Below, piece after piece: positions 1-54,115 of a DNA stretch of 55,245 nt (the first letter of the stretch is position 1; each line of letters starts with the position of its first letter). Source of the DNA: a bacterium (GTDB taxonomy: Bacteria; Elusimicrobiota; Elusimicrobia; Elusimicrobiales; UBA9959). The notes below the pieces were generated by a model. That model had not been told where the DNA came from. It saw only the letters and a program-made list of their open reading frames with translations, and made no database searches. The translations under genes and the position numbers were made by a program. The DNA is taken from assembly GCA_021847485.1 (NCBI GenBank), contig JAJZRA010000007.1, positions 1 to 55,245 on the forward strand, read 5' to 3'.

Positions 1-1634
1 CCGTCCAGGGCAGGCAGCGCCCCGCTGAGCTTGGAGGAGGTCACCGTCAGGATGGCCCCGTCGTAAACGGACCCCACGGCCACGGAGGACGCTATCACAT
101 TGGCGCCCAGCGAACCCGCGGTCACGTTAGAAGCCGGGATGGCGGAAGCCGTCACGCCCGTCAGCCCCGAGCCGTCGCCGAAGAAGCCGCCGCTCGTGGT
201 GATGGACGACTGGCTCACGATCTTGCCCGAGGCGCCGGTCAGGTTAAGATTGACGTTGTTCATCGTCAGCGCCCCGGTCATCGTGTCGCCGGCCAGGTGC
301 ACCACCGCGCTGTCGGCCGCCTTCGTGCCCAGGTCCGTCACGATCACCGCCGTCGAGGTTATCACGCCGGTCAGCGCGGACCCGTCCATGTTGGCGAAAT
401 AAGAGGCGCTTATCGCCGGGATCTTGCCGGTCGTATCGATTATGGCCACGTTGCCGGAACCGGCCGTGATGCCGCCGGACACCTTGAGGGCGTCCGCGGC
501 CGTACTGGTCATAGTGACCTTGTCGGCAGGCGCCACCAGCGAAACGGTGCCGGTACCGCCGCCGGTCCACGGGCTGGCGCCGCCTGAAGCCAGCGGATTC
601 CACGCCGAGCCGTTGGAGACGTACAGAGTGCCGGAGTTATTATAATACAGCGCGCCGGCGCCCAGGGAAGCCGCGTCGGGAGCGGAAGCGTAAGCCCCCA
701 CCTTCAGCTGGCCGTTGACGGCCACGTTGGTATCGATGAGGATAGCGCTCTCGGTGGTCGTCTTGAACGCCGGGGAGGCGTCCATGGTCAGGGCGCCGGT
801 CATCGTGTCGCCGGTCTTCAGCACCTTGTCCGTGGTGACGATGCCGGTCAGCGCGGAACCGTCGCCGTAGAACTTGTTGGCGCGGACCTCGCCGAGGCCG
901 TTCACGGTAAAGATATCTGCGGTACCGGTGGAGACCGCCATCAGGGTACCGGTCTCGCCGGCGCCGCTGGAGACCTGCAGCCTGTATGCGGGGCTGGCCG
1001 TGCCTACGCCGACCAGGTTGCTGTTATTGCCGAGGTAGACCAGGCCCGAGGCGGAGGACCACGGCGAGGCGCCGCCGGAAGAGAGCGGGCTCCAGGCGGT
1101 GCCGTTCCAGAAATTTATCTGCTTGCCGACGGAGTCATAGACTATGGCGCCCTCGCCGATGGCGCCGGGCAGGGTATTGAAATTACCCAGCTTCAGCTGG
1201 GAAGCGCTCATCACCGTATCCGTGGAGATGGTGGCCTGAGTGCCGGAGGAACCGAGGTTGGCGGTGTAGAGAGCGTAGGGGGTGGAGAGCAGGCGCGTGC
1301 GCGGGGACATCGGGGAATCGGAACCGATCTTTATTTCCAGGTACCGGGCGTCCGAGCTGAAGACGGAGGCGGGCAGCGGGGTCACGCCGCCGAGGCTCAC
1401 CGCGAAGATCCCGTTGTCGGGAGTGACGCTCTGGGTCTCGGACCAGAGCAGCGTCCCGCCGGAGGCGGCGTCGTAGACGCTGAAGAGGATGCTCTGCGCC
1501 CCGACAAGCGGGTTGCCGGTGGTATCCACCAGGCGGCCCTGGTAGTTTATCAGCAGCGGCGCGGCCGCGGCCAGAACGGGCAGCAGCAGCAAGGCCGCGA
1601 GCGTCCCGGCCAGCCTGGTCTTGAGCGTCTTCAT
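1..1634 (-). CDS. Secreted trimeric fibre/tail-fibre-like surface protein, partial (3' end beyond left edge)
   Basis: Minus strand read by hand line by line: ATG at 1634, GGAGG at 1639-1643, open to position 1. Starts MKTLKTRLAGTLAALLLLPVLAAAAPLLINYQGRLVDTTGNPLVG (signal peptide + INYQGRL motif), with repeats KFYGDGSALTGI, LKTGDTMTGALTM, GGFFGDGSGLTGV. Absent from the ORF track because it has no stop in the window. Confidence 0.85.
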   Translation of the reverse strand, partial: MKTLKTRLAGTLAALLLLPVLAAAAPLLINYQGRLVDTTGNPLVGAQSILFSVYDAASGGTLLWSETQSVTPDNGIFAVSLGGVTPLPASVFSSDARYLEIKIGSDSPMSPRTRLLSTPYALYTANLGSSGTQATISTDTVMSASQLKLGNFNTLPGAIGEGAIVYDSVGKQINFWNGTAWSPLSSGGASPWSSASGLVYLGNNSNLVGVGTASPAYRLQVSSGAGETGTLMAVSTGTADIFTVNGLGEVRANKFYGDGSALTGIVTTDKVLKTGDTMTGALTMDASPAFKTTTESAILIDTNVAVNGQLKVGAYASAPDAASLGAGALYYNNSGTLYVSNGSAWNPLASGGASPWTGGGTGTVSLVAPADKVTMTSTAADALKVSGGITAGSGNVAIIDTTGKIPAISASYFANMDGSALTGVITSTAVIVTDLGTKAADSAVVHLAGDTMTGALTMNNVNLNLTGASGKIVSQSSITTSGGFFGDGSGLTGVTASAIPASNVTAGSLGANVIASSVAVGSVYDGAILTVTSSKLSGALPALD

Positions 1635-1702
1635 AGTGCCTCCAACCGTCTCCGAAATAAGGAATAAAATTTTCATGTACAATATCTCCCAAAAGACTAC
1701 AT

Positions 1703-1718
1703 AGCAATGACTTTGCCA
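1703..1718 (-). promoter_or_regulatory. Candidate sigma-54 (-24/-12) promoter for the fibre-like gene
   Basis: Minus strand TGGCAAAGTCATTGCT against consensus TGGCACGNNNNTTGCW; exact GG-N10-GC spacing. Predicted +1 near 1692, about 58 nt upstream of the ATG. Confidence 0.75.
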
Positions 1719-1806
1719 AAGCCGTAATCTCTGAATCCGATTAAATTATAGGGAATCTACTGATAAGGAAAGAATACAAAAAAGTGAAATACTTGTTAAC
1801 TGCAAT

Positions 1807-1856
1807 TGTAGATAAAAGTCTACATTGTAGACATTTTTCTACATATTTAATGTAGA
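1807..1856. promoter_or_regulatory. Tandem upstream activator (enhancer) site array
   Basis: TGTAGA-taaaag-TCTACA (1807-1824), then TGTAGA-catttt-TCTACA (1826-1843), plus a fifth half-site TGTAGA (1851-1856). Located about 115-165 bp upstream of the predicted TSS. Confidence 0.65.
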
Positions 1857-1868
1857 CAAATATCCACA

Positions 1869-3236
1869 CTACTCTATAGAATAGGCCTTAATTTTATCGT
1901 AAAGGGCTTTACGATCTATACCGAGAAGCTTCGCCGCCTGCACCTTGTTGCCGCCGGACTTGGCCAGGGCGGCCTTGATAAGCCGCGTCTCCGTGAAAGC
2001 CCGCGCCTGCCGCAGGCCCTCCTTCATGTCCAGGTCCTGCGCGCCGGTATCGGCCGGGGCGGAAGCCGCCTGCGCCTCCCCTCCCAGCCCCAGATGGACC
2101 GGCAGGATCTCGCCGCCGCTCAGCAGCGCGGCGCGGGTGATGACGTTCTTCAGCTCGCGCACGTTGCCCGGCCACGGATAAACCATCAACGCGGCGAGGG
2201 CCGCGTCCGAGATGCTCTCCACTTTCTTGTTGACCAGCTTCTCCGCCTCCTTCAGGAAGAAGGCGGCGAGCGCGGGGATGTCCTCCTTGCGCTCGGCCAG
2301 CGACGGCACCTTGAGCGTGAACTGGTTGAGGCGGTGGTAGAGGTCCTCGCGGAAAGAGCCGTCCCTGATGCAGGCCTGCAGGTCCTTGTTGGCGGCGGCT
2401 ATCACGCGGGTGTCCACCGGGATGTCCTTCTTGCCGCCGAGGTGGCGGATGCGGCGCTCCTCCAGCACGCGCAGGAGCTTGGCCTGCGTGGCCGTGGTCA
2501 GGTTGGCGATCTCGTCGAGAAAGAGCGTGCCGCCGAAGGCCGTCTCGAAGAGGCCGGGCTTGCGCCGGTCGGCGCCGGTGAAGGCGCCGCGCTCGTAGCC
2601 GAACAGCTCGCTCTCGACGAGGTTCTCCGGCAGCGCGCCGCAGTCCAGCGCGACGAAGGGGCTGGCCGCGCGGGAGCTCAGGCGGTGGATCTCCCGGGCC
2701 CAGACCTCCTTGCCCGAGCCGGACGGCCCCGAGAGGATGACGGTCAGGTCGGTGGCGGCCACCTGCGCGGCCAGCGCCGCCGTGGCCTTGATCTCGCGGC
2801 TGGAGCCGAACACCGGCTCCGGGCCCTGCGCGCGCGCGACGTGGCTGCGCAGCGCGTCGAACTCGCGCCGCAGCCGGCGCTCCTTGACGGCCTTCTCGAT
2901 GATCAGCAGCAGCTCCTCGTTGCCGAAGGGCTTCACCAGGTAGTCCAGCGCGCCGAGCTTCATGGCCTTGACGGCGCTCTGCACGTCGGCGTGGCCGGTG
3001 AGGATGATCACGGGCAGGCCCGGGTCTTCGGTCTTGAGCTTCTCGAGGATGGAAAGGCCGTCCATGTCCCCCAGCACCATGTCCAGGATGACGGCGTCGA
3101 AGGTGAGGGCCTCGGCCAGGCCGAGCGCTTCGGCGCCGGAGGCCGCGGCGGCGCAGGCGTGGCGGGCGCTCTCCAGCGTCGCCTTCAGGATGAAGCGCGT
3201 GTCCTCGTCGTCCTCGGCTATCAGTATGTTGCCCAT
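1869..3236 (-). CDS. Sigma-54-dependent NtrC-family response regulator (REC-AAA+-Fis HTH)
   Basis: Receiver motifs (AEDDEDTR, VILDMVLGDMDG, LVKPFG), Walker A GPSGSGKE, GAFTGA motif (GYERGAFTGADRRKPGLFE), C-terminal Fis-type HTH. Confidence 0.95.
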   Translation of the reverse strand: MGNILIAEDDEDTRFILKATLESARHACAAAASGAEALGLAEALTFDAVILDMVLGDMDGLSILEKLKTEDPGLPVIILTGHADVQSAVKAMKLGALDYLVKPFGNEELLLIIEKAVKERRLRREFDALRSHVARAQGPEPVFGSSREIKATAALAAQVAATDLTVILSGPSGSGKEVWAREIHRLSSRAASPFVALDCGALPENLVESELFGYERGAFTGADRRKPGLFETAFGGTLFLDEIANLTTATQAKLLRVLEERRIRHLGGKKDIPVDTRVIAAANKDLQACIRDGSFREDLYHRLNQFTLKVPSLAERKEDIPALAAFFLKEAEKLVNKKVESISDAALAALMVYPWPGNVRELKNVITRAALLSGGEILPVHLGLGGEAQAASAPADTGAQDLDMKEGLRQARAFTETRLIKAALAKSGGNKVQAAKLLGIDRKALYDKIKAYSIE

Positions 3237-4345
3237 CAGACGGTCTTCCTGAAGCGCAGGCTCACCGAGGTCCCGCCGCCGGGCGGCGAGGAGACGGTTA
3301 TGCGCCCGCCGTGCTCGTCCATGATCTGGCGGGCGAGGTAGAGGCCGAGGCCGGTGCCGTTCTCCTTGGTGGTGAAGAAAGGCTGGAAGAGGTTCTCCAG
3401 CATGGCCGGCTCGAGCCCCGGGCCGTTGTCGCTGACGGTCAGGAAGACCTCTCCGTCGGCCTCGGACCAGCCGGAGCCGACCCTGATGGCCGCGTCCCTG
3501 GCGCCGGCCAGGGCCTGGGCGGCGTTATTGAGGATATTGTAGATGACGCTGTGCATGTAGTGCGGGTCCAGGAAGACCTTGGGCGTCTTGCCGAGGTCCC
3601 TGTCGAGGCGCACCTTGGCGGCCTTCAGCGCGCTGTCGATGAGGCCCAGCGAATATTCCGCGGCCTCGTTGACGTCGTACGGCTCCAGGCGGCACATGCC
3701 GCTGCGCGAGAAGTCCAGCAGCGTCTTGACGATCTTGGACGCGCGGCGGGCGTTGCGCTCTATCAGTTCGGCGCCGGAGCGCACCTGGTCCGGCTGGCCC
3801 TCCTGCGCGCGCAGCAGCTCCGACGTGGAGAGGATGACGTGCAGCGGGTTCTTGATGTCGTGCGCGAACATCGAGGTCAGCTGGCCTATGGAGGTCAGGC
3901 GGCCCAGCTTGCGGGCCGCGTTGCGGAAGACGTGCGGGTCCTTGAGCGCGGACCACTCGTCCGGCGAGACCGGCGACAGGTAGAGGCAGAAGCCGTTGAG
4001 CGCGCCGGCTTCGTCGTTGAGCGCCTGCACGGTCAGGAAGAGCCGCACGATGCTCCGGGAGGCGGTCTGCACGTAGAAGCGGTAGTTGCGCACGACGCCG
4101 TTCTTGGCGGCGAGGGCGGCGAGGTCGGAGAACTCCTTGAGGTCCTTGCCCAGCACGAGCGCCGAGAGGGGCCTGCCGGCCACGTCCTTCTCCTCCCAGC
4201 CGAGCAGCTTCAGTGCGCTCCGGTTCACCAGCAGCACGTCGAGCGCCGGTCCCAGGACGACCATGGGTTCCTGGGCGTTCACGAAAAGGGTGTTGCAGAG
4301 GCTGTGCTGCAGGGACGTCAGCCCCGCTTCGCGCTTGTCCGTCAT
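3236..4345 (-). CDS. PAS-domain sensor histidine kinase (NtrB-like, no obvious TM)
   Basis: PAS-like N-terminus, H-box FAHDIKNPLHVILS, N/G boxes NILNNAAQAL, DNGPGLEP, GTGLGLYLARQIMDEHGG. Overlaps the start of the response regulator. Confidence 0.93.
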   Translation of the reverse strand: MTDKREAGLTSLQHSLCNTLFVNAQEPMVVLGPALDVLLVNRSALKLLGWEEKDVAGRPLSALVLGKDLKEFSDLAALAAKNGVVRNYRFYVQTASRSIVRLFLTVQALNDEAGALNGFCLYLSPVSPDEWSALKDPHVFRNAARKLGRLTSIGQLTSMFAHDIKNPLHVILSTSELLRAQEGQPDQVRSGAELIERNARRASKIVKTLLDFSRSGMCRLEPYDVNEAAEYSLGLIDSALKAAKVRLDRDLGKTPKVFLDPHYMHSVIYNILNNAAQALAGARDAAIRVGSGWSEADGEVFLTVSDNGPGLEPAMLENLFQPFFTTKENGTGLGLYLARQIMDEHGGRITVSSPPGGGTSVSLRFRKTV

Positions 4346-5385
4346 AGCTTTTTCCTGTAAAGGTTAACGCTGCGCCTGGAGACCTTGAGGCCGTGCTCCG
4401 CTTTCAGCCGCGCCGCGACCTCGGCGTCGGTCAGGCGGCCGGCGCCCGCCCCCAGGATATCCCTTATTCTATCAATTACCAGCGCGCTTTTCCGGCTGAA
4501 AAGGTCCTTCAGGCGCAGTTCGTCCCCCCACGGCGCGGTTATGGTGCGCGAGGCCGCCAGGCGCGACACGGTGGCCGGGTCCAGGCCGACCTTCTCCGCG
4601 AGTTCGCGCTGCGTCAGCGGCTTGAGCGGGCCTTTGCCAAGCAGGAAGGCGCGCTGCTCCTCGAGCAGGGCCGTAAGCGTGCGGTGGAACCCCGCCTTGC
4701 GCCAGGAGATCCGTTGCGCGGCGGCGGCCAGCGCGCGGACCCGGGCGGCCTCCGCGCGGGTCAGCCCGCCGGACTTCAGCAGCCGGGCCAGGGCGGGCCC
4801 GTTGATGACGTAGGCGCCGCGCAGGTAGGCGGGGTGCGTGTAGGCCACCTGCAGCCTGCCGCCTTCCGCCCGCACCTCGGCGGCGCGGCGCAGCAGCGGC
4901 GCCGGCAGGGCCGCCGGCGGCACGCGCTCGTGCGCGGCCAGGAAGGCGTCGGTGAAGGACCTCAGCCGCGCGGCCTCGGCCGCGCTCAGGCCGCAGGCCG
5001 CGGCGGCGGCCGCCGCGTCGAACGGGGCGTCGGAGAGGAAATAGCGCTCGAAGGCCGCGGCGCCGGCGCGGCGCGCCAGCGCCAGCATAGCGGGGCGTTC
5101 CGCCAGCCATTCGCCGGCGCCGCAGCGCTCGGCGGCGGCGGCCAGCGCGGCGTCGCCGCAGGCGGCCGGGAAAGCGTAGGAGGCCCCCGGAAAGCGCCGC
5201 CGGGCCACCGGGGCCCCCTCCGGGCCGGCGGCGAGAAGCCTGGCGAAGAGCGGGTCGCCTTCCAGCTCGGCCGCGGCGGCCAGGAAATCGGCCTCCGGCC
5301 GCGCCAGCATGGCGAACAGCCGCAGGTCGTGCCGCAGCGCCGGGGATTGAGAGAGCCCGGCCTCCTGTCTTTTGCGCTTCTCCAT
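4342..5385 (-). CDS. Divergent RNA polymerase sigma-54 factor (RpoN-like)
   Basis: C-terminal core AFLLGKGPLKPLTQRELAEKVGLDPATVSRLAASRTITAPWGDELRLKDLFS and RpoN-box-like SRRSVNLYRKKL (canonical ARRTVAKYR). Region I-like N-terminus lacks the usual Gln richness. 4-nt overlap with the HK gene. Confidence 0.85.
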   Translation of the reverse strand: MEKRKRQEAGLSQSPALRHDLRLFAMLARPEADFLAAAAELEGDPLFARLLAAGPEGAPVARRRFPGASYAFPAACGDAALAAAAERCGAGEWLAERPAMLALARRAGAAAFERYFLSDAPFDAAAAAAACGLSAAEAARLRSFTDAFLAAHERVPPAALPAPLLRRAAEVRAEGGRLQVAYTHPAYLRGAYVINGPALARLLKSGGLTRAEAARVRALAAAAQRISWRKAGFHRTLTALLEEQRAFLLGKGPLKPLTQRELAEKVGLDPATVSRLAASRTITAPWGDELRLKDLFSRKSALVIDRIRDILGAGAGRLTDAEVAARLKAEHGLKVSRRSVNLYRKKL

Positions 5386-43649: not shown

Positions 43650-46600
43650 CTACTTGATAACGGCCATCTTGTGCGCCTTGCGGCCCAGCTTCTTGCCGTC
43701 CAGGTAGGTCAGCATGAAGTAGACGCCGGAGGCGCATTCCTGGTTGTTGTCGTTGCGGCCGTCCCATTCCGAGTAGTAGACCTGGTTCCCGTCGCGGTGC
43801 CCCTCGTCGATCGTGCGCACCTTCTCGCCGACCAGGTTATAGATGACGAACTTCAGGTCGCCCGACTTGCCTGCGGGCAGGTTGTACTTTATCAGCGTGC
43901 CCGGCGTCTGGTAGGAGGCGCCCAGCAAGGTCTGGCCGTCCGAACTGATGTTCACGGTCTTGGCCTTCAGGTTGAACGGGTTCGGCAGGTTGTAGACCTC
44001 GAACGCCGAGCTGTAGGCCGCGGTGCCGGTAGGGGGCTTGGCCGTGAAGACGGCGAACTTGCCGGTCTGGGCGGCCGGGGCCGCGGCGCTCGGCACGTAG
44101 CGGCCGTCGCGGACCGCGCTCATCCTGAAGCGCTTGCGCGCCAGCGGCGTGGTGGTCCCGCCGCCGCTCCCCTCGTAGGCCAGCTCCAGGCTGGAAACGT
44201 CCACGCTGACCACGCCGGTCATCGGGTCCACGGTGTAGTTGCCGGGGATCTCCTTCCAGGCGCCGGAGGCCTCGTCGTACTGGCAGATGCGCAGGCCGCC
44301 GGTGTTCAGCGCTTTCTCCTTGTCGTACTTGAGCGTCAGCGTGAACGGCTTGTTGGGCTGCGCGTTGGAGAGGTCCAGGTTGTAGACCTCCGAGGCCATC
44401 AGGTCCTTTATGGCCGATTCCAGCGTAACGTTGCCCTTGGCGGTCTTGACGGTGCGCACCGAAGGCAGCGCGCTGAAGAACCCGCCCACCAGGTTCTGGA
44501 AGTCGGCCGTGTTCGAAGAGACCGTGAGCGCGCCGGCGTCCAGCTCGATGCCGGAATATTCCTCCGTCTCCTGGTCCATCATGACCTCGCCGCCGGCTAT
44601 GGCGGCGTCCTGGATGTACTGCTCCGTCTTCGCGTCGTTGGTCTGATCGTAGGGGATGGTCTTCTCCATCCTGTTGTCGCCGTCGCCGGCGGCCACGTAG
44701 ACGGTATAGAACCGCTGGCTGGAGGACACCGTGAACTGCCCCGTATAGGTATTGTTGGCGCCGGGCACGAGGGCCAGGCTGACCGCCGAGGTGGCCTCGA
44801 AGACGTCGCCGGGGTTGTAGCTGCAGGAAGGCGTGGTGACCAGCGCCTTAGGGCTGGTGATGACCACGTCGACCTTGCTGGCCGAGTCCGGGGACTTCCG
44901 CACCTTCACGGTGACCTGCGGCGGGATGTCGCGCAGCACGATGTCGTCGACGACGGTGTCGCCGTTGAGCGCCGCCACCTCTATGGTCTGCGGCAGCTTG
45001 CCCTCCATGAAAGCCGAGACCTTGTACAGGTGGCCCCTTACTATGCCGGCCAGCTCGTAGGAGCCGTCCTCGGCCGTCTGGGCCTCTATCGTGGGCAGGT
45101 AGGCCGCCGGGGACTCGACGTTCATGGTCTCGTCGTAGGCCACCAGCCGGACGCCCTGCCTGGTGACGGGCGACGGGAACTTGCCCAGGTAGACCTTGCC
45201 GGTTATCCTGGACTCGGTCGGGACCAGCGCGAAGCGGAAAGAGGCGGAGTCGTTGCCGGCCAGGCCGGTCTTCTGGCCGGCCTTGACGAAGCCTTCTTTG
45301 CTGACCTCCAGCCTGTAGATGCCGGGCGGCAGGTTGCCGAAGGCGAAGGCGCCGGAAGAATCCGTCACGGCGAACTTCTCCACGGTCCTGTGCCTCAGGT
45401 GCACCTGCGCGTTGTCCACGGCCTCGCCGGTAGCGGAACTGACCACCACGCCGGAGATGGCGCCCACCACCAGCGTCTGCGCGCCGAAGTCGAAGTCGTA
45501 GCTCTCGTCGTCCGGCAGCACGACCTCCTTGGGCACGGGCGGGTAGTTGGGATTAACGAACACCGCGGTATAGCGGCCCGGGGGCAGGCCCCAGACCAGG
45601 TAGCGCAGCGGGTTCGCCGCCAGCGCGTCGAGGACCATGGTCTTGCTCTTCTGCTTTATGCCGTCCTCGAAGCCGACTATGGCGGTCTCGTCCGGCAGCG
45701 CGTGGCCGAAGCCCTTGAGGTCGCCGGCCGTATCGTAGAGCATCACGGCCGGGATCAGCGGCATGATCTCGGTGTCGAAGTTGGAGAAGATCTTCTCGAA
45801 GTCGGCGTCGGAGAAGATGCCCCCGCCCTTTATCCGCCCGGTCATGCTGCCCTGGCCTACCGAGCCCAGGATGTTCAGCGGGATGGGCTGGTCCAGCGTC
45901 CCGAAGTTGGGATTGGTATCCGACTTCTTCACGGGAACGCCGCGCTGCTGGCCTATGAAGTTGGCGAACTGGTAGTAGCTTTGCGGCTTATACTGGTCCC
46001 CGCCGCCGGGGTTGTAGCTCACCCCGACCACCAGGTAGAAGTCGTACTGCCCGGGCACCATGTACTTCTTGTCCCAGGAAGCCGTCGCGGTGCTGTAGTT
46101 GAAGAAGTACTGCGGCTCCTCGAAGAACATCTCGGTGATGTTGCGCTGGTTCATCTGGAAGCCGGAAGGCACTCCCAGCACCGTATAGTTCCAGGTGGGC
46201 GTGGAGAGCGCCGGCAGGCCGAAGATCTGAGGCTGGACGACCAGCCCGTCCTGCAGCTTCAGTTTGACCTCGGCGGTGTTGCCCACGCTCACGCTCACCC
46301 CGTCCAGTTCCGCCGGCGGCCAACGGAACTCGCTGCCGCGCGGCTTCAGGTAAACGTCATAGGTGCCGGCCGGCACGTTCGGGAACTCGAAGGCGCCGTA
46401 CTCGTCCAGGCCGGTGCCGTCGCTGAACTGCACGCTCTGCCCGCGCAGCTCTATATCGGCGCCGTAGAGGCAGGCGCCTCCGGAGCAATCGGGCCTGAAG
46501 TTGGAGCCGTCCGGGAGCTTGACCTGGCCGCGGAGCCTGCCGGCCCGCGTCAGCGTGAAGTCCATCCTGACGGTGTCGGTGGAGGAGAAGTCGGCGTTGT

Positions 46601-49600
46601 TGTTGAACGAGGAGAGCATGCCCCAGTCCGGGCCGTAGATCTTGACCCAGTAGGCCGCGCCCGAGGACAGCGTCACGGCGTAGGAGGTGGTGTTGGAGGT
46701 CAGCGTGCCGGAGAGAGAAGCGAAGCCGAGCTGCCTGGCCTGGCAGTCCCCGTCGCAGTTCTGCATGGCCATCACCACCACCGGCGAAGAGGCCGGTATC
46801 TCGAGCGGGCTCTGCGCCGAGACCGTGTAGGTCGTCACGAAGGTCAGGCTGCCGTAGAGCGTTCCGAGCGAATTGGCGCCCGGGGCGGACAGGTTGAACA
46901 GCAGGTTGTCTGCCCCCAGGCATTCGCCCTGGTAGTCCAGCACCCAGGTCCTGCCGGGCAGGCAGGGGTTGCCCGCCGGGAGGGAGGGTCCCCGCGCGCC
47001 GGAGGAGGAGATCGTGATGCGCAGGTCGTCGGAGACGTCGGTGTTGTTGCCGGAGTTCAGGTCCTGCCAGTTGCCCATGAACGAGGCGGTCAGCCTGGCG
47101 TTGCCGTCGGTAAGACCGCTTATGGAGAAGGTCCCGTCCGCCCCGGTCACGGCCTTGGCGTCGTTGCGTATGCCGCCGACGCCCGTGTTGGCGTAGGAGT
47201 CGCCGCCGGTCGCCCACTGGTAGTCCCCGTTCACCATGATCGCCGCGTTCGGCAGGGGTACCCCGTTGTATTTCACTACGCCGGTAAGGGTGTACGTCGC
47301 CAGCGTGAGCATGAAATCTCCGGAGAGGGTGTAGGCCGTAGTGGTTATACAAACGCCGTAGGCGCCCGGCATAGTGCAGTCGGCGTTGGGATAAGCCGAC
47401 ATGGAATAGTTGCCGTAGCCCTGCTTCCTGATCTCCAGGTTATAGGCGGCCGTGGAGAGCGGCACGGCGTTGAAGACGGCGCGGCCGTTGACGTCGGTAA
47501 GGTTCTCGTAGATGGCGGTCTTCTGCCAGCAGGGGTCGTAACCGCCGCAGCTGGCGGGGATATTGGCGCTCTGGGACAGTTCGACGCGGACGCCGTCCAG
47601 AGGCGCGCCCCAGGTGGAGCGGACCACCGCCTGGAAGGAAGGCGGTTCGACGGAATCCCCGGCGGCGAAGCCCACGGCCGCCACCGCGCTGGTCATATCC
47701 ACGGCGTAGGCCCGCGTTTCGGGGAAGGCGGCCGGCAGGTAGAGCGTCACGCCTTTGTTCTTGCCGGGCACGTTTACGTTAACGCCGTAAACGCCGCCGG
47801 CAGCGGGCGGCAAGTTATGGATCAGCAGCTCCGAAACGAAGGAGGTGGACCTGGCTATGCCGTAGGCCGCCTTGTCGCCGTTCTTGGAGTAGAAGACCTC
47901 GCCCACCAGGTAGTCCCCGGAGACGAGGCCGGAGGAGACGTCCACCTTGAGCGTGTAGCCGGGCTCGTAGGAGGTCTTGGAATAGAGCCGGTACTGGCGG
48001 GTAGCGTCGCCGGTAAGGCTTACCATGAAGGAGCCGTAAGGGTCCATCAGCTGGTCTTTCATGGTGGGTTTGTAGCCCGGAGTGGAGATGCCGACGAAGT
48101 ACTGGAAGCCGGCGGGCAGGCGCGCGCCGTAATAGCCGGAGGCGCTGGCGCTGCCTATTATCATCAGCTCCGGGTTGACGCCGCCGTTCTGGTCGAACGG
48201 CATGATCACTATCGGCACGCCGCCGGCGGGCGCGCCGGCCGTGCCGGAAGTGACGTAGACCGAGAGCATCGGGTTGTTGGCGGAGAAGATAAGCTGGCGG
48301 TACCGGTAGACGCCGAAGCCGCCGTTCATCTCGCCGGTAACGGAAACATAGCCGACGCTGTCCACGTGCACGTCCCAGCCGCGCTCGTAGGAGGAGCCGC
48401 CGCTGTTGAAGGAGCGGGTCCAGATCACGTCCCCGCCGGAAGAGAACTTCCGCAGGAAAAGGTCCTCGGCCTGGTTTATGTCCCAGCGCGACTCCGAGCC
48501 GGTCACGTAGACCGAGCCCTGCGAGTCCACCGAGGCCCGGCCGGCGCTGTCGTAGCTGTTGCCCGGGTCGTTATAGACCCGGGTCCAGACCTCGGCGAGG
48601 CTGGGCAGGGAGAGCTTGCGCAGCCAGATGTCGGAGCCGGTCTCCATCCCGCCGTAGACCGAAGCCGCGGCGTAGACGGCGCCGCCGCCGTCGGCGGCTA
48701 TGTCGGCGGCTATGCCGCCCGCCTGGTCCCAGTAGTTCCCGTCGCCGGTCATCACGGCGGTGGAGGTTACCAGGGCCGGGTCCAGCGAGGACGGGACCCG
48801 CACCACCTCGGCGTCCCCGCCCGTAACGGCGTTATAGAAATTACCGGCGGCGTACAGCACCGAGTTGGTGCTGTCGTATACCAGGTCCACGATCTCATGG
48901 CCCCAGGCGCCGCCGTCCCCGGAGAGCAGGAGCTCCGCCAGCTTGGCGCCGGCCGGGGAGAGCTTGGCTATGTAGGCGGCGCTGCCGGAATTATTCTGCG
49001 CGCTGCCTCCCAGGTAGATATTCCCCGCGTCGTCCGCGGCGGCGGCGTAGCCGTAGTCGTAATTATGGTCGTAGTCGTAACTGCGGCTCCAGAGCAGTTC
49101 GCCGGAGGGCGAGTATTTCAAGGCCAGCAGGTCGTAGCGGGTGGAGCTGTCCCACGCGCCGCGCGAGCCGGCCACTATGATATCGCCGGCCTTGTCGAGG
49201 GTCACCGCGTAGGCGTCGAGGTACTCCCCCGGCCGCCCCGCGAAGAACTTGGTCCATTCCGTGGTCATGTCGGGACGGTACTTGCGCAGCACGAAGATCC
49301 CGCTCCCGGCTCCGGCCGCGTTGTTGGCCCAGTAGTTGGAGACGACGTAGAGATAGCCGGCGGGGTCTACCGCGGACTTATTGCGCCAGCCGTAGGCATT
49401 GGTGAGGCTCCAGACCTTGCTGTCCGGGTAGGTGACGGCGGTGGTCTGCACGTCCGGGGTATTGGCGTAGGCGGTGGCCGTCCCGGAAAGCGGGACCGCG
49501 GCCGAGCCGTCGTAAGACCAGGCCCTGAAATAATAGGCGGGCGAGGTAACGGCGCCGGAGCCGTCGCGGCTGGCGTCCAGGCCGCCGGCCGTTACGCTCT

Positions 49601-52600
49601 GGTACATACCGGAGAGCACCGGCACGGTGGTATAGAGGACCGTCTGCGAGTCGAGGTAATTGTCGGTGAGAGCCGCCGGGGAAAGGGCGGCCTGGATGTA
49701 ATAGGAGGAGCCCACGCTCAGGTCGGCCGGCGCCGTCCAGAAAAGGTCTACGGTGCCGGGATAGAGGCCCGTCTTGCCGCCTATGACCACGGAAGGGGCC
49801 GAGAAGTAATAGACGCCTGGCCTGCCGTCGACGGAGACGCCGGCAAAGACCCCGGACCCGTACGGCATCACGTCCTTGGACATCTCATTGGCGCCGCTGC
49901 CGGCGTCGAAGGATTTGACCCAGACCTGGCCCAGGGTGTTCGTGTCGTACTTGGCCACGCGGATGTCGTCGTAGGAGCAATAGGTGCCGGCCAGGCAGCT
50001 GCGGAAATCGTAGCCGGCGGCGTAAACGTAGCCGCCGTAATAGGCCACCCCGTTGTAGGCCTGCATCATGTTGAGCGGGCTGGTATAGGTGGAAGCGACC
50101 ACCGGCTGCAGCGCGCCGCCGGCGTGGTCTACGAACTTGCCCAGCCAGGCCTCGTCCTGGCCGGTGTTGAGCCTGCCGGCCACGTAAACGTCGGAAGCGG
50201 GCCCGGCGGCCACGCCGTAGGCGCCGCTGTAGGCCGGGCTGGAGACCGCCGTCTGGGACAGGACGGCGCCGGTCGCCGTGCTGAGCTTGACCAGCCAGAT
50301 ATCGTCCTCGGTCGAGGTAACGCCCTTGACGCCGGCCGCGTAAACGGCGGCGGTGGTGACGGCCAGCGAGTTGAAGCGGTTGCCTATGCTGCCGGACGCC
50401 GCGTCGATGGTCGAGGACCAGAGCTCGTAGCCCGTGGACGGAGAGAACTTCTTCAGCACGGCCGCCATGTCGCTGCCGGAGGTCTTCATCTGGCCGCCGA
50501 GGTAGATGTTGCTGGAACCGTCCAGGGCCAGGGCATTGGCCTGGTCTATCCCCATGGACAGGCCGGGGATGACCTTTTCCCACAGCATATGGCCGTCGGG
50601 GTGTATGGCCGCCAGGTAGATATCCTGGCTATTGACCGGGTCCGCGTAGACGGAACCGGCCACGTAGGCCACCCCCCTTTCGGATATGGCCAGGGCTTTG
50701 ATGTCGAACCAGGGTGAGGCGTTGACGGAAGGAACGGAAAGGTTGTAGAACCGCGTCGAGAGGAAGCGGGCGCTGCGGGGATCGTACGCGCGCAGGGCCC
50801 AGCCGCCCTGCATATTGACGCCGGAGCTCAGGGCGAAAGCCTGGAAAACATTGCCGGCCACGTCCATGGCGGTGGCGTAGCTCATGGGATAAGCTTCGGC
50901 GTAGGTCAGACGGCCCTGCGGATAGAGGCCGATCCTGTCGGAGATGACCGGCGTGCGGGGCTGGGCGGAGACGGGCGCCCCCATAGGCGTACTGCCCACC
51001 CAGGCCATGAAATACAGCGTCGGCGTAGTGGAGTTGCCCGCGCCGTCCTGGGAGGCGGGCAGGTTGCGCACCACGAAGGAATCGGAGACCGAGGCCGGGA
51101 CCGCTATGGTGGAGAAGTTGATCTGGGCCGCGGCGTAGTTCCAGGCGTAGGCGGCGGCGGTCGCTATCTGGATATGGATCTGGGTGCCGGCGGTCACGGC
51201 CGCCGGGTACTGCCAGTTCAGGTTCACGCTGGCGGTGTACTCGCCGGAGTAGGCCTTCAGCTGCCAGGAGGAGGACGGCGCCGCCTGCGGCGCGTAATAA
51301 CCGAAGGAATTCTGCCCGCTGAAGAAGCCGTCCAGGAAGGGAGCGCCGGCGCTGCTGACGGCCACGCCGTAGAACATGTCGCTGCCGGCGGCGGCGTAGG
51401 TGAAAGTTGAGACCAGCTGGCCGTCGGAGGTGTAGCGCGCGTAGAGCGCGTTATAGCCCTGGCCCAGGTCCTGGCGGTACTCGTAGCCGGCGGCATGGAC
51501 TACGCCGAACTTGTCCACCGCGCAGCCGTAGAAGGTCTCGTACTTGCTGTAGGTGGTATACGGGTTGTCGTAGCTGCGGGTCCAGAGCGCGTTCCCGGAG
51601 CCGTCGTATTTGCGCAGAAAGGCGTTGGGGCCCTGCACGGAGTCGTAATTGGAACCGCACAGGTAGGGGTTGCCGGACTGGTCCACGGTCACGCCGTAGC
51701 CGTAATCGCCGCCGGAACCGGAATACATGGAGGTCCAGAGCATGGCCCCGGAAGGAGAATATTTCCCCAGCCACATATCCGTGGAATTAGGCGAGTTGTC
51801 GACATAGCCGGCCACGTAGACGTTACCGGCCGGATCAAGCGCCACCGACCTGCCGTAGTCGTAAGGGTAGGAGACCGGGGCGGTGCTGTTGTAGGTCCGC
51901 TCCCAGAGCTCGTTGCCGTAGACGTCGTACTTGGCCAGCCAGATATCGGTGGAGCGGTTGCTGGTGGAGGAGTATACCGCGTAACCCGCGGCGTAGAGGT
52001 TCTTGGCGGCGTTATCGAAAGCCAGCGCTGAGACGCCGTCATAGGCGTTGTAGACCGCGCCCGGGCGCTCCCTGAACCAGATCAGGTCTCCGGAAGCGTT
52101 ATACTTCGCGACGAAGATGTCGCTGCCTGAAGCGGTGGAGAAACTGCCGCCGATGTAGACGTCCTGCGTCGCCTCGTCCACGGCCACCCCGCGGGCGTAA
52201 TTATTGGCGTACTGCGCGGACGAAGTCAGGAAGCGCACCCAGACCAGGCGGCCCGCGGCGTCGTACTTGCGCGCGGCGACGGCGTAGCCGTAGCCTCCGA
52301 CATAGTAAGGGCTGGCCAGGTAGACGTTGCCCTTGGCGTCCACCGCGGGCTGAGGGTTGCCGCCCGCGCTGAGGTTGTATTCGAGCACGAGCATGCCTCC
52401 GGCATAGGCCATGGTGCTGACAGGCACGAAAACCGGCGTAGGCGGAGTGGCGGCGGCAGTATTGGAGACAGGGGAAAGCAGGCCGGAAGCCTCTATCCAG
52501 ACGCGGAAGGTATAAGCCGGCGTCTGGACGGCGCCGAGGCCGTCCCGGCCGGCGTTCAGGGCGCCTATGACCTGCGTGACGGCGGTGCCGGAGGGGATGG

Positions 52601-52862
52601 CGGTATTGGTGGTGACGACCACCTGGGCGTTGCCGGGGCTCCAGACCGTGGTGGCTACGTTGGTGGAATACTGGATGTAGAACTTGTCCCCGGAGACGAG
52701 GTTGTCGTTCACCGTCCAGGTGAACTGCACCGTGCCCGGGTAGGGCCCCGCCGCGGCGGAGACCAGCGTCGCCGGGTTGGTGGCCGCGGCCCAGCGCGCG
52801 CCGGCCCCCCACAGGGCGGCCGCGGCCGCCAGCGTCAGAACGATCCTTTTTATCTTCGGCAT
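43650..52862 (-). CDS. Giant secreted surface protein (~3070 aa): three FN3-like/SBBP-propeller units, multiple carboxypeptidase-regulatory-like domains, C-terminal FlgD-Ig/T9SS-type-A-like domain
   Basis: Start trimmed to MPKIKRIVLTLAAAAALWGAG at 52862. Repeats such as DIWLAKYDVYGNELWERTYNS, GNVYVAGYVDNSPNSTDMWLGKYSPSGAMLWT; C-term YNLPNPFNL...IYNLVGEKVRTIDEG...YSEWDGRNDNNQECASGVYFMLTYLDGKKLGRKAHKMAVIK. Confidence 0.88.
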   Translation of the reverse strand: MPKIKRIVLTLAAAAALWGAGARWAAATNPATLVSAAAGPYPGTVQFTWTVNDNLVSGDKFYIQYSTNVATTVWSPGNAQVVVTTNTAIPSGTAVTQVIGALNAGRDGLGAVQTPAYTFRVWIEASGLLSPVSNTAAATPPTPVFVPVSTMAYAGGMLVLEYNLSAGGNPQPAVDAKGNVYLASPYYVGGYGYAVAARKYDAAGRLVWVRFLTSSAQYANNYARGVAVDEATQDVYIGGSFSTASGSDIFVAKYNASGDLIWFRERPGAVYNAYDGVSALAFDNAAKNLYAAGYAVYSSTSNRSTDIWLAKYDVYGNELWERTYNSTAPVSYPYDYGRSVALDPAGNVYVAGYVDNSPNSTDMWLGKYSPSGAMLWTSMYSGSGGDYGYGVTVDQSGNPYLCGSNYDSVQGPNAFLRKYDGSGNALWTRSYDNPYTTYSKYETFYGCAVDKFGVVHAAGYEYRQDLGQGYNALYARYTSDGQLVSTFTYAAAGSDMFYGVAVSSAGAPFLDGFFSGQNSFGYYAPQAAPSSSWQLKAYSGEYTASVNLNWQYPAAVTAGTQIHIQIATAAAYAWNYAAAQINFSTIAVPASVSDSFVVRNLPASQDGAGNSTTPTLYFMAWVGSTPMGAPVSAQPRTPVISDRIGLYPQGRLTYAEAYPMSYATAMDVAGNVFQAFALSSGVNMQGGWALRAYDPRSARFLSTRFYNLSVPSVNASPWFDIKALAISERGVAYVAGSVYADPVNSQDIYLAAIHPDGHMLWEKVIPGLSMGIDQANALALDGSSNIYLGGQMKTSGSDMAAVLKKFSPSTGYELWSSTIDAASGSIGNRFNSLAVTTAAVYAAGVKGVTSTEDDIWLVKLSTATGAVLSQTAVSSPAYSGAYGVAAGPASDVYVAGRLNTGQDEAWLGKFVDHAGGALQPVVASTYTSPLNMMQAYNGVAYYGGYVYAAGYDFRSCLAGTYCSYDDIRVAKYDTNTLGQVWVKSFDAGSGANEMSKDVMPYGSGVFAGVSVDGRPGVYYFSAPSVVIGGKTGLYPGTVDLFWTAPADLSVGSSYYIQAALSPAALTDNYLDSQTVLYTTVPVLSGMYQSVTAGGLDASRDGSGAVTSPAYYFRAWSYDGSAAVPLSGTATAYANTPDVQTTAVTYPDSKVWSLTNAYGWRNKSAVDPAGYLYVVSNYWANNAAGAGSGIFVLRKYRPDMTTEWTKFFAGRPGEYLDAYAVTLDKAGDIIVAGSRGAWDSSTRYDLLALKYSPSGELLWSRSYDYDHNYDYGYAAAADDAGNIYLGGSAQNNSGSAAYIAKLSPAGAKLAELLLSGDGGAWGHEIVDLVYDSTNSVLYAAGNFYNAVTGGDAEVVRVPSSLDPALVTSTAVMTGDGNYWDQAGGIAADIAADGGGAVYAAASVYGGMETGSDIWLRKLSLPSLAEVWTRVYNDPGNSYDSAGRASVDSQGSVYVTGSESRWDINQAEDLFLRKFSSGGDVIWTRSFNSGGSSYERGWDVHVDSVGYVSVTGEMNGGFGVYRYRQLIFSANNPMLSVYVTSGTAGAPAGGVPIVIMPFDQNGGVNPELMIIGSASASGYYGARLPAGFQYFVGISTPGYKPTMKDQLMDPYGSFMVSLTGDATRQYRLYSKTSYEPGYTLKVDVSSGLVSGDYLVGEVFYSKNGDKAAYGIARSTSFVSELLIHNLPPAAGGVYGVNVNVPGKNKGVTLYLPAAFPETRAYAVDMTSAVAAVGFAAGDSVEPPSFQAVVRSTWGAPLDGVRVELSQSANIPASCGGYDPCWQKTAIYENLTDVNGRAVFNAVPLSTAAYNLEIRKQGYGNYSMSAYPNADCTMPGAYGVCITTTAYTLSGDFMLTLATYTLTGVVKYNGVPLPNAAIMVNGDYQWATGGDSYANTGVGGIRNDAKAVTGADGTFSISGLTDGNARLTASFMGNWQDLNSGNNTDVSDDLRITISSSGARGPSLPAGNPCLPGRTWVLDYQGECLGADNLLFNLSAPGANSLGTLYGSLTFVTTYTVSAQSPLEIPASSPVVVMAMQNCDGDCQARQLGFASLSGTLTSNTTSYAVTLSSGAAYWVKIYGPDWGMLSSFNNNADFSSTDTVRMDFTLTRAGRLRGQVKLPDGSNFRPDCSGGACLYGADIELRGQSVQFSDGTGLDEYGAFEFPNVPAGTYDVYLKPRGSEFRWPPAELDGVSVSVGNTAEVKLKLQDGLVVQPQIFGLPALSTPTWNYTVLGVPSGFQMNQRNITEMFFEEPQYFFNYSTATASWDKKYMVPGQYDFYLVVGVSYNPGGGDQYKPQSYYQFANFIGQQRGVPVKKSDTNPNFGTLDQPIPLNILGSVGQGSMTGRIKGGGIFSDADFEKIFSNFDTEIMPLIPAVMLYDTAGDLKGFGHALPDETAIVGFEDGIKQKSKTMVLDALAANPLRYLVWGLPPGRYTAVFVNPNYPPVPKEVVLPDDESYDFDFGAQTLVVGAISGVVVSSATGEAVDNAQVHLRHRTVEKFAVTDSSGAFAFGNLPPGIYRLEVSKEGFVKAGQKTGLAGNDSASFRFALVPTESRITGKVYLGKFPSPVTRQGVRLVAYDETMNVESPAAYLPTIEAQTAEDGSYELAGIVRGHLYKVSAFMEGKLPQTIEVAALNGDTVVDDIVLRDIPPQVTVKVRKSPDSASKVDVVITSPKALVTTPSCSYNPGDVFEATSAVSLALVPGANNTYTGQFTVSSSQRFYTVYVAAGDGDNRMEKTIPYDQTNDAKTEQYIQDAAIAGGEVMMDQETEEYSGIELDAGALTVSSNTADFQNLVGGFFSALPSVRTVKTAKGNVTLESAIKDLMASEVYNLDLSNAQPNKPFTLTLKYDKEKALNTGGLRICQYDEASGAWKEIPGNYTVDPMTGVVSVDVSSLELAYEGSGGGTTTPLARKRFRMSAVRDGRYVPSAAAPAAQTGKFAVFTAKPPTGTAAYSSAFEVYNLPNPFNLKAKTVNISSDGQTLLGASYQTPGTLIKYNLPAGKSGDLKFVIYNLVGEKVRTIDEGHRDGNQVYYSEWDGRNDNNQECASGVYFMLTYLDGKKLGRKAHKMAVIK

Positions 52863-52903
52863 AAGTTCTCCTGGAACGAAAACCGCGCGCCCCGCCGGCG
52901 CCC

Positions 52904-54115
52904 TTAGAACTCCCACTCCAGACCGGCCAGGTAGGTGCTGGCGCGGTAGTTGTACCTGTAGTCGGCCTCGTAGCGCATGTTCGACGACGAGACCTGGTAA
53001 TTGTAGGCCGCCTTGGCGTAGACCTTCCCGTAGACCGGGTAACGGGCCGCGACCGACGTCAGCCAGAAGGTCTGGTTGATCTTGGAGGCGCCGTAGTTGC
53101 CGGCGGCGTCCTGCTTGAGGCGGCCGAGGTAGTAGAGGCGCCGCCAGTCCAGCCCGAAGGAGAACTGCGTGCCGTTCTTCAGCAGGAAGCTGACCGCCGG
53201 GTTCAGCTCGAAGTCGACGTAGCTGTAGTAGTTCCCGATGTACTTGGTGCGGGCCGAGTCGTAGGAGTTCTGGTTGGAGTTCAGCCAGCCGGCGCGCGCG
53301 CCGACGGACATGAAGACGGGCTTGATGGCTCGCGAGACCCGGCAGGTCCAGTTCTGCACCAGGTCGGTGCGCTTGTCGCTCTTGAAGTAAGGCTGCCCGG
53401 TGGCCGGCCTGGAGATGACGGCCTGGTCGCCGTAGCGCCGGTAGGTAAAGTCGTAGCCGGCCTTCATGACGGCCGGCTCCGGGTACCACGTGTAGCCGAA
53501 GGCCAGGCGGTGGTTGGCGTTGTCGAGCGTGTTGGTGCCGGCGTTGGCGGAGAGCTCGTTGAAGGTGGTGGTGTCTATCACCGTGCCCGCCTCGGAGAGC
53601 AGCGTGGCGTAATTCGGGTATTTGACGCTGTAGAAGTCGTAGGACTCGGTGAACGTGCCGTAGGGCCGCTCCTGCTCGGCCTCGAAGCCGGCGGACAGCG
53701 TGTTATAGTCGAACAGCCCGTCCCCCCACTTCTCGTCCTTGGTCTCCTGCACCAGCGCCTTCGACCAGGAGACGCGCGGCTTGTACTTGTCGAACTCGTC
53801 GGTGTAGACGTACTTGAGCGAGAGCGTGTGCGTCTGGCGCTTGCGGGTCAGCACGCCGCCGCCGGCCAGCTCCTGGATGTCCTGCGTGCCGGAGTAGTTG
53901 CCGGAATAGACCGGGATCAGCTCGTGGCCCTCGCCCAGCTGCAGCGCCGGGGAGAAGAAGGCGTCGAAGCGCCCCTGGAAGGAGGCCGCGTCGGAGTCCA
54001 GGTAGTACTTGCCGCCCAGCAGCGAGACGTCGGCGGCGGGCAGCAGGCGGACCTGGGCCGCGGCCGAAGGCGCCAGGCAGGGCAGCAGCAGGAAAGCGAA
54101 GAGGCTCTTTTTCAT
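52904..54115 (-). CDS. Outer-membrane beta-barrel protein
   Basis: Signal peptide MKKSLFAFLLLPCLAPSAAAQ; alternating Tyr/aromatic beta-strand pattern; terminal aromatic (AGLEWEF). Confidence 0.75.
   Translation of the reverse strand: MKKSLFAFLLLPCLAPSAAAQVRLLPAADVSLLGGKYYLDSDAASFQGRFDAFFSPALQLGEGHELIPVYSGNYSGTQDIQELAGGGVLTRKRQTHTLSLKYVYTDEFDKYKPRVSWSKALVQETKDEKWGDGLFDYNTLSAGFEAEQERPYGTFTESYDFYSVKYPNYATLLSEAGTVIDTTTFNELSANAGTNTLDNANHRLAFGYTWYPEPAVMKAGYDFTYRRYGDQAVISRPATGQPYFKSDKRTDLVQNWTCRVSRAIKPVFMSVGARAGWLNSNQNSYDSARTKYIGNYYSYVDFELNPAVSFLLKNGTQFSFGLDWRRLYYLGRLKQDAAGNYGASKINQTFWLTSVAARYPVYGKVYAKAAYNYQVSSSNMRYEADYRYNYRASTYLAGLEWEF

Follow-up and report, generated by a model that had tools for sequence, protein, structure and literature searches.

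Sigma-54 is classically regarded as one general factor that works with many activators, and the locus described here raises the question of whether a sigma-54 can be devoted to a single promoter. The window that we analyzed, a stretch of 55,245 nucleotides, is the entire contig G000:C119 of a metagenome-assembled genome (MAG) of the Elusimicrobiales that is 83% complete. Near its left end, three minus-strand genes with overlapping ends encode a short divergent sigma-54 of 347 residues, which we call S54A (4342-5385), a histidine kinase of 369 residues (3236-4345) and an NtrC-type response regulator of 455 residues (1869-3236), which is the predicted sigma-54 activator, or enhancer-binding protein (EBP). 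They are followed by an intergenic region of 234 bp (1635-1868) and by the gene of a secreted, repeat-rich fibre, which begins at position 1634 on the same strand and is truncated by the contig end (3-1634). The initial annotation had described this layout, and the gene coordinates, the overlapping ends and the length of the intergenic region were all confirmed when we re-read the window. We consider it probable that S54A, its own kinase and its own activator form a self-contained sigma-54 module, which would be dedicated to the single promoter of the fibre operon.

Whether S54A is a sigma-54 at all was examined at the level of both sequence and predicted structure. The protein matched the Pfam profile Sigma54_DBD (PF04552) with 62.8 bits, against a cut-off of 22.8, and has the C-terminal DNA-binding domain with its helix-turn-helix (HTH); its RpoN box reads SRRSVNLYR where the canonical box is ARRTVAKYR. 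When a hidden Markov model of the family was compared with the sigma-54 chains of the PDB, sigma-N of Aquifex was matched (E 1.8e-27), and the S54A clade was monophyletic in the phylogenetic tree (support 100/98). The AlphaFold model reached a pLDDT of 86, and the first 27 matches of this model in a Foldseek search of the PDB were all sigma-54 proteins, with low TM-scores (about 0.3) that are perhaps due to a differing domain arrangement. According to the model, S54A has the overall sigma-54 fold. The activator-interacting domain of region I (AID, PF00309) gave no Pfam match in the genome of the window, and against the NCBI equivalog model of the general RpoN (TIGR02395) S54A scored 64 bits, with a cut-off of 277. 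As judged by these scores, S54A is a divergent relative of sigma-54 and not a general RpoN. The same two results could also mean that S54A is a former sigma factor that now serves as a DNA-binding protein, for example one that competes with another sigma-54 or antagonizes it. We find this hardly credible, since the sigma-54-like fold was predicted confidently over the full length, sigma-54 proteins were the only good structural matches, a residual region-I-like pattern is kept in the alignment (residues ~11-50), and no other canonical sigma-54 was found that the EBPs could use.

For the two partners of S54A, Pfam identified PAS, HisKA and HATPase_c domains in the kinase, and REC, Sigma54_activat (218 bits) and a Fis-type HTH in the regulator, which place the latter in the NtrC family; the families previously assigned to all three genes were thereby upheld. 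The AAA+ domain of the regulator contains Walker A and Walker B motifs and the GAFTGA loop, which is kept in 26 of 26 EBP orthologues. At two loci with further divergent sigma-54s (L085 and L087), the sigma-54-contact loop of the EBP reads GAFTDA, not GAFTGA. The pair is also unlike PrsK and PrsR of PEP-CTERM systems: the kinase scored 74 bits against the PrsK model (TIGR02916, cut-off 300) and the regulator 381 bits against the PrsR model (TIGR02915, cut-off 502), both well under the cut-offs; in addition, the genes under control would be those of a fibre operon, and the sigma-54 gene shares its operon with those of the two-component system.

The initial annotation had made its proposal depend on the genes staying together in relatives, and this is what we found. 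We found the pair of S54A and kinase at 28 loci. The contig extends to the EBP gene at 26 of them, and at 24 of these 26 the EBP is followed by a fibre whose N-terminus is the same. The order of S54A, PAS kinase, EBP and fibre is thus conserved at no fewer than 24 loci, in five genera of one Elusimicrobiota family (one genus and four others). At a further locus (L056), the contig stops inside the start of the fibre gene, and both the promoter and the palindromes described below are present. The loci found by sequence belong to MAGs of the Elusimicrobia/Elusimicrobiales, several of them of groundwater origin.

The intergenic region itself carries two conserved elements. After the activator gene, 24 of the 26 loci have three 18-bp palindromes of the form TGTRGA-N6-TCYACA. 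Those in the window, the proposed activator sites, each read on the minus strand, are located at 1851-1868 (TGTGGATATTTGTCTACA, a 12/12 match to this form), 1826-1843 (TGTAGAAAAATGTCTACA) and 1807-1824 (TGTAGACTTTTATCTACA). The array starts a few bases past the EBP stop codon in most members of the genus and further downstream in the other genera, and its spacing is usually near 24 and 19 bp, as measured in 23 intergenic regions. We also considered that the array might terminate transcription of the regulator operon. One hairpin of six pairs was found, but three AT-centred 18-mers at fixed spacing are unlike a terminator, and we rejected this explanation. The second element is a -24/-12 promoter on the minus strand (TTGGCAAAGTCATTGCTA, 1702-1719, GG-N10-GC). 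A promoter of the same class (consensus TTGGCAAAGTCGTTGCTA) precedes the fibre at 25 of the 26 loci that reach the EBP; it takes the form TTGGCAAAGTCGTTGCTAT, lies 88-206 bp beyond the palindromes, and its TGGCAA and TTGC are invariant in the 23 intergenic regions. The 10 bases between its GG and GC are the canonical sigma-54 spacing. The distance between array and promoter fits that typical for an enhancer, and its flexibility would suit activation by looping. The array and the -24/-12 element, first noticed in the window alone, are thus beyond chance, as both recur at 23 orthologous intergenic regions and the control search for the strict palindrome gave no match.

How far these elements are confined to the fibre was assessed by pattern searches of 12 genomes, on which all our whole-genome statements are based. 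The strict, AT-centred palindrome was found at 19 sites, all in the fibre promoter region (control 0), and tandem palindrome pairs were likewise confined to the fibre promoter. The strict form misses slightly variant copies in the genome of the window (G000) and in G018; the looser tandem search recovered those of G000, at the fibre. With at most one mismatch, the fibre promoter had a single occurrence per genome in nine of the 12, always at the fibre. Promoter and sigma factor also vary together: in the only one of the 12 genomes without the S54A cassette (G010, 99% complete), the palindrome array and the fibre promoter are missing as well, and in two genomes of other genera (G034 and G035) S54A has diverged (34% and 32% identity) and so have the promoters.

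S54A is not the only sigma-54 of its genome. A second short sigma-54, S54B, lies on contig C36, divergently oriented to an EBP of its own, and the region between these two genes contains TTTTCA-NN-TGAAAA palindromes and a distinct promoter (TTGGCATNAAAATTGYTC). Another contig end (L086:2-322, G000:C63) encodes a fragment of 106 residues that shares 96% identity with the S54B C-terminus and is either a second copy or a strain variant. Of the 12 genomes, 11 contain promoters of the S54B class (TGGCATNAAAATTGYT), one to seven each; these mostly precede genes of small exported proteins and S54B itself, often with a palindrome ~100 bp upstream. At the S54B gene these promoters could be read as sigma-70 promoters (TTGYTC-N17/18-TATAAT), an idea that was dropped as other sites of the class have no TATAAT. 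The possibility, raised by the initial annotation, that S54A is the sole and general RpoN of its genome can therefore be dismissed: S54B is present with its own EBP, and no canonical RpoN was detected in this genome at its 83% completeness. The best score for the DNA-binding domain in 61 relatives was 74.8 bits. Across the phylum, 113 of 295 genomes have a sigma-54 match above the cut-off, and the match is canonical-looking in one only (G107, 171 bits). That RpoN (L190) has no adjacent EBP, in a genome without a strong EBP (>180 bits), and we disregarded it as an outlier or a product of misbinning.

The sigma-54s and the activators appear to be paired one to one. In the 12 genomes we counted 27 strong EBPs, 23 of which lie on a contig that also bears a sigma-54, and the two counts are equal in nine genomes. 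Of 38 additional loci with a short sigma-54 across the phylum, about 29 adjoin an EBP, whole or cut. Sigma-54 and EBP distances were correlated (r = 0.92 for 76 pairs; 0.80 for the 28 pairs outside A and B), above all 999 permutations. Taken by the standard of the pairs known from Cereibacter (see below), linkage, matching counts, motif classes and correlated distances agree with one another, and S54A and its EBP may form a dedicated pair, in which the sigma-54 would work with this EBP and with no other.

A different explanation of this pairing is that S54A and S54B are interchangeable, that specificity comes only from the activators and their binding sites, and that the linkage of sigma factor and EBP is historical. 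In well-studied bacteria, a single sigma-54 serves many EBPs, and most bacteria use one sigma-54 for many genes. EBP counts are given in PMC3162934. Both promoter classes share the TGGCA-N6-TTGY spacing, and both proteins retain the RpoN-box pattern RR(S/T)V--YR. We nevertheless regard interchangeable sigma factors as unlikely: spacers and flanks of the -24/-12 elements differ consistently (AAAGTCG/TATA in the A class, TNAAAA/TCT in the B class), the A and B proteins form deep, separate clades with ~26% identity, S54A is gained or lost jointly with its promoter, and the retention of a sigma-54 in the operon of its activator across five genera would need a reason if it were exchangeable.

Gene order, motif conservation, uniqueness and pairing were read from the sequence; signal flow, binding, promoter specificity and the lack of cross-talk are what we infer for a dedicated S54A module, the chain from the kinase to the open complex being patterned on what is established for NtrC-type activators. 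The cytoplasmic PAS kinase would perceive a signal and phosphorylate the NtrC-type regulator, which would then occupy the three tandem palindromes directly past its own gene and loop across about 90-210 bp to the RNA polymerase that carries S54A. This polymerase would stay at the one -24/-12 promoter as a closed complex, until hydrolysis of ATP by the regulator, transmitted via its GAFTGA loop, opens the complex and switches on the surface operon, that is, the fibre, a CHU_C/FlgD-like protein, a LysM outer-membrane protein, a coiled coil, a very long kinase and a response regulator. S54A would be the dedicated sigma factor of the fibre promoter alone, and S54B, with its own activator, palindromes and promoters, would serve a separate regulon, mostly of exported proteins plus the S54B gene. 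The two circuits may be orthogonal, as suggested by the distinct classes of promoters and palindromes and by the finding that most genomes have one EBP for each sigma-54.

Several observations weigh against a dedicated module. One locus (L037) has no array, promoter or fibre, and an unrelated gene follows its EBP; in another (L061) the promoter persists, separated from the EBP by a transposase-like gene. Promoter sites with two or three mismatches were indistinguishable from background; a set extended to three mismatches, with 18 control matches in the 12 genomes, was rejected as background only. The supposed contact of S54A with the activator draws on the residual region-I pattern and the predicted fold. 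The GG-N10-GC arrangement is common to the A and B promoters, making cross-recognition possible; the correlation of distances leaves shared species ancestry in; and the MAGs are incomplete (that of the window included), so there may be unseen sigma-54s or EBPs. Moreover, a conserved TATAAT box between the array and the -24/-12 element (1745-1750, minus strand, in the window) suggests a second promoter, possibly of the sigma-70 type. Its distance from the palindromes does not change in 20 of the 23 intergenic regions (fixed in the genus g1), whereas that to the -24/-12 element varies. The fibre operon could then be transcribed mainly from this box, with the regulator bound at a fixed distance and the -24/-12 element as a minor or second promoter. 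We judge this very improbable, as no good -35 hexamer pairs with the box (the weak 9/12 sigma-70 pair that we found does not use it, and was rejected), three of the four other genera lack the box and all four have the -24/-12 element, and the regulator has retained GAFTGA.

The predicted target of the S54A module had been annotated as a secreted fibre. The fibre gene is indeed there, and the description can be refined, as its N-terminus resembles that of the MAT fibres of Bdellovibrio (36.9 bits, under the curated cut-off of 60). The MAT N-terminal model NF053851 gave 31.9-48 bits over eight fibres, so the fibre looks MAT-related and is not assigned to the family. Like the MAT fibres (Caulton 2024, PMC10769870), those described here are exported, have a conserved N-terminal domain followed by a variable, repeat-rich remainder, and occur as several paralogues per genome; unlike them, they score 32-48 bits, under the cut-off. 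The MAT family is further characterized by a trimeric beta-prism fibre with an adhesive tip. We found 78 matches to the fibre N-terminus in the 12 genomes, 4-10 in each, and one paralogue per genome appears to be under the control of an S54A-class promoter. In complete loci, the fibre gene is followed by genes of a CHU_C/FlgD-like exported protein, a LysM outer-membrane-like protein, a coiled coil of about 900-1300 residues, a kinase of about 1000-1300 residues and a REC protein; in this conserved operon (L232:4998-16843 and L241:993-11872), no known system was recognized. The expectation that the fibre operon runs past the left edge of the window proved right: in the same genome the operon genes lie on contig C60, the first frame of which (L241:3-986) repeats the last residues of the window fibre (TKAADSAVVHLAGDTMTGALTMNNVNLNLTGASGKIVSQSS...), so that the window contig very likely continues on C60. 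Many MAG contigs end at the fibre gene (e.g. G000:C119 and G028:C54). Assemblies break inside this repetitive gene, and the operon is consequently hidden from contig-level surveys. Elsewhere in the window, the minus strand encodes a predicted protein of 3279 residues (43650-53489) with CarboxypepD_reg repeats and SBBP and FlgD_ig-like domains.

The closest precedent, as far as the available parts of the papers go, is that of the RpoN/bacterial EBP pairs of Cereibacter (Rhodobacter) sphaeroides, RpoN1/NifA, RpoN2/FleQ and RpoN3/AprX, for which this organism is called exceptional (PMC11999139, PMC7277832). There too, a genome has several sigma-54 paralogues, each studied RpoN with its cognate activator and its own gene set, rpoN2 sits within its target fla1 locus, and the specificity of RpoN1 and RpoN2 is partly set by promoter position -11. 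Those proteins differ from S54A in being proteobacterial RpoN paralogues, two of which, RpoN1 and RpoN2, act on entire sets of genes; S54A is short, divergent and co-operonic with a kinase and an EBP beside its target, and its predicted regulon is one operon. RpoN1-pepA of Aquincola, as described in the accessible text of PMC9850573, is a functional analogue, with a sigma-54 paralogue (one of four), an implicated kinase and NtrC-type regulator, an exported surface protein and a -24/-12 promoter. In these sources, neither system is known to combine a streamlined sigma-54 co-operonic with kinase and activator, a single predicted target and a genome without a general RpoN. Closer in arrangement are two loci of the Margulisbacteria (Termititenax and Marinamargulisbacteria; L188:5924-8366 and L189:219-2703), in which a sigma-54 gene of 369-370 codons lies downstream of an overlapping EBP gene; unlike in the S54A cassette, the EBP loop is GAFTDA and the sigma-54s belong to neither the A nor the B clade of the tree. 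With mainly exported or surface targets, both the A and the B circuit fit the theme that sigma-54 controls the exterior of the bacterium (Francke 2011, PMC3162934). The available part of that survey lists Elusimicrobium minutum without sigma-54, and short sigma-54 paralogues of other Elusimicrobiota were not found in it; nor did the part of the open-access literature on sigma-54 in Elusimicrobia available to us describe such a fibre circuit. What appears to be new, then, is the combination of self-contained cassettes, a seemingly unique promoter and a genome in which a canonical RpoN was not detected.

A broader generalization can be put forward only tentatively, with belief and doubt close to balance: much of the Elusimicrobiota, with no general RpoN detected, might run several short sigma-54s, each with one activator, as insulated circuits, of which the fibre circuit, with one promoter per genome, would be the extreme. 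If true, a phylum with short sigma-54s packaged with their activators, in one case with an apparently single promoter, would reveal how sigma-54 specificity evolves. As a natural pair whose promoter classes differ sharply and whose activators are separate, S54A and S54B make the basis of promoter and activator specificity directly testable; they may also supply components for orthogonal expression that is ATP-gated and tightly off. For the organisms themselves, the circuit suggests that uncultured bacteria from groundwater possess a surface-fibre machine that is regulated.

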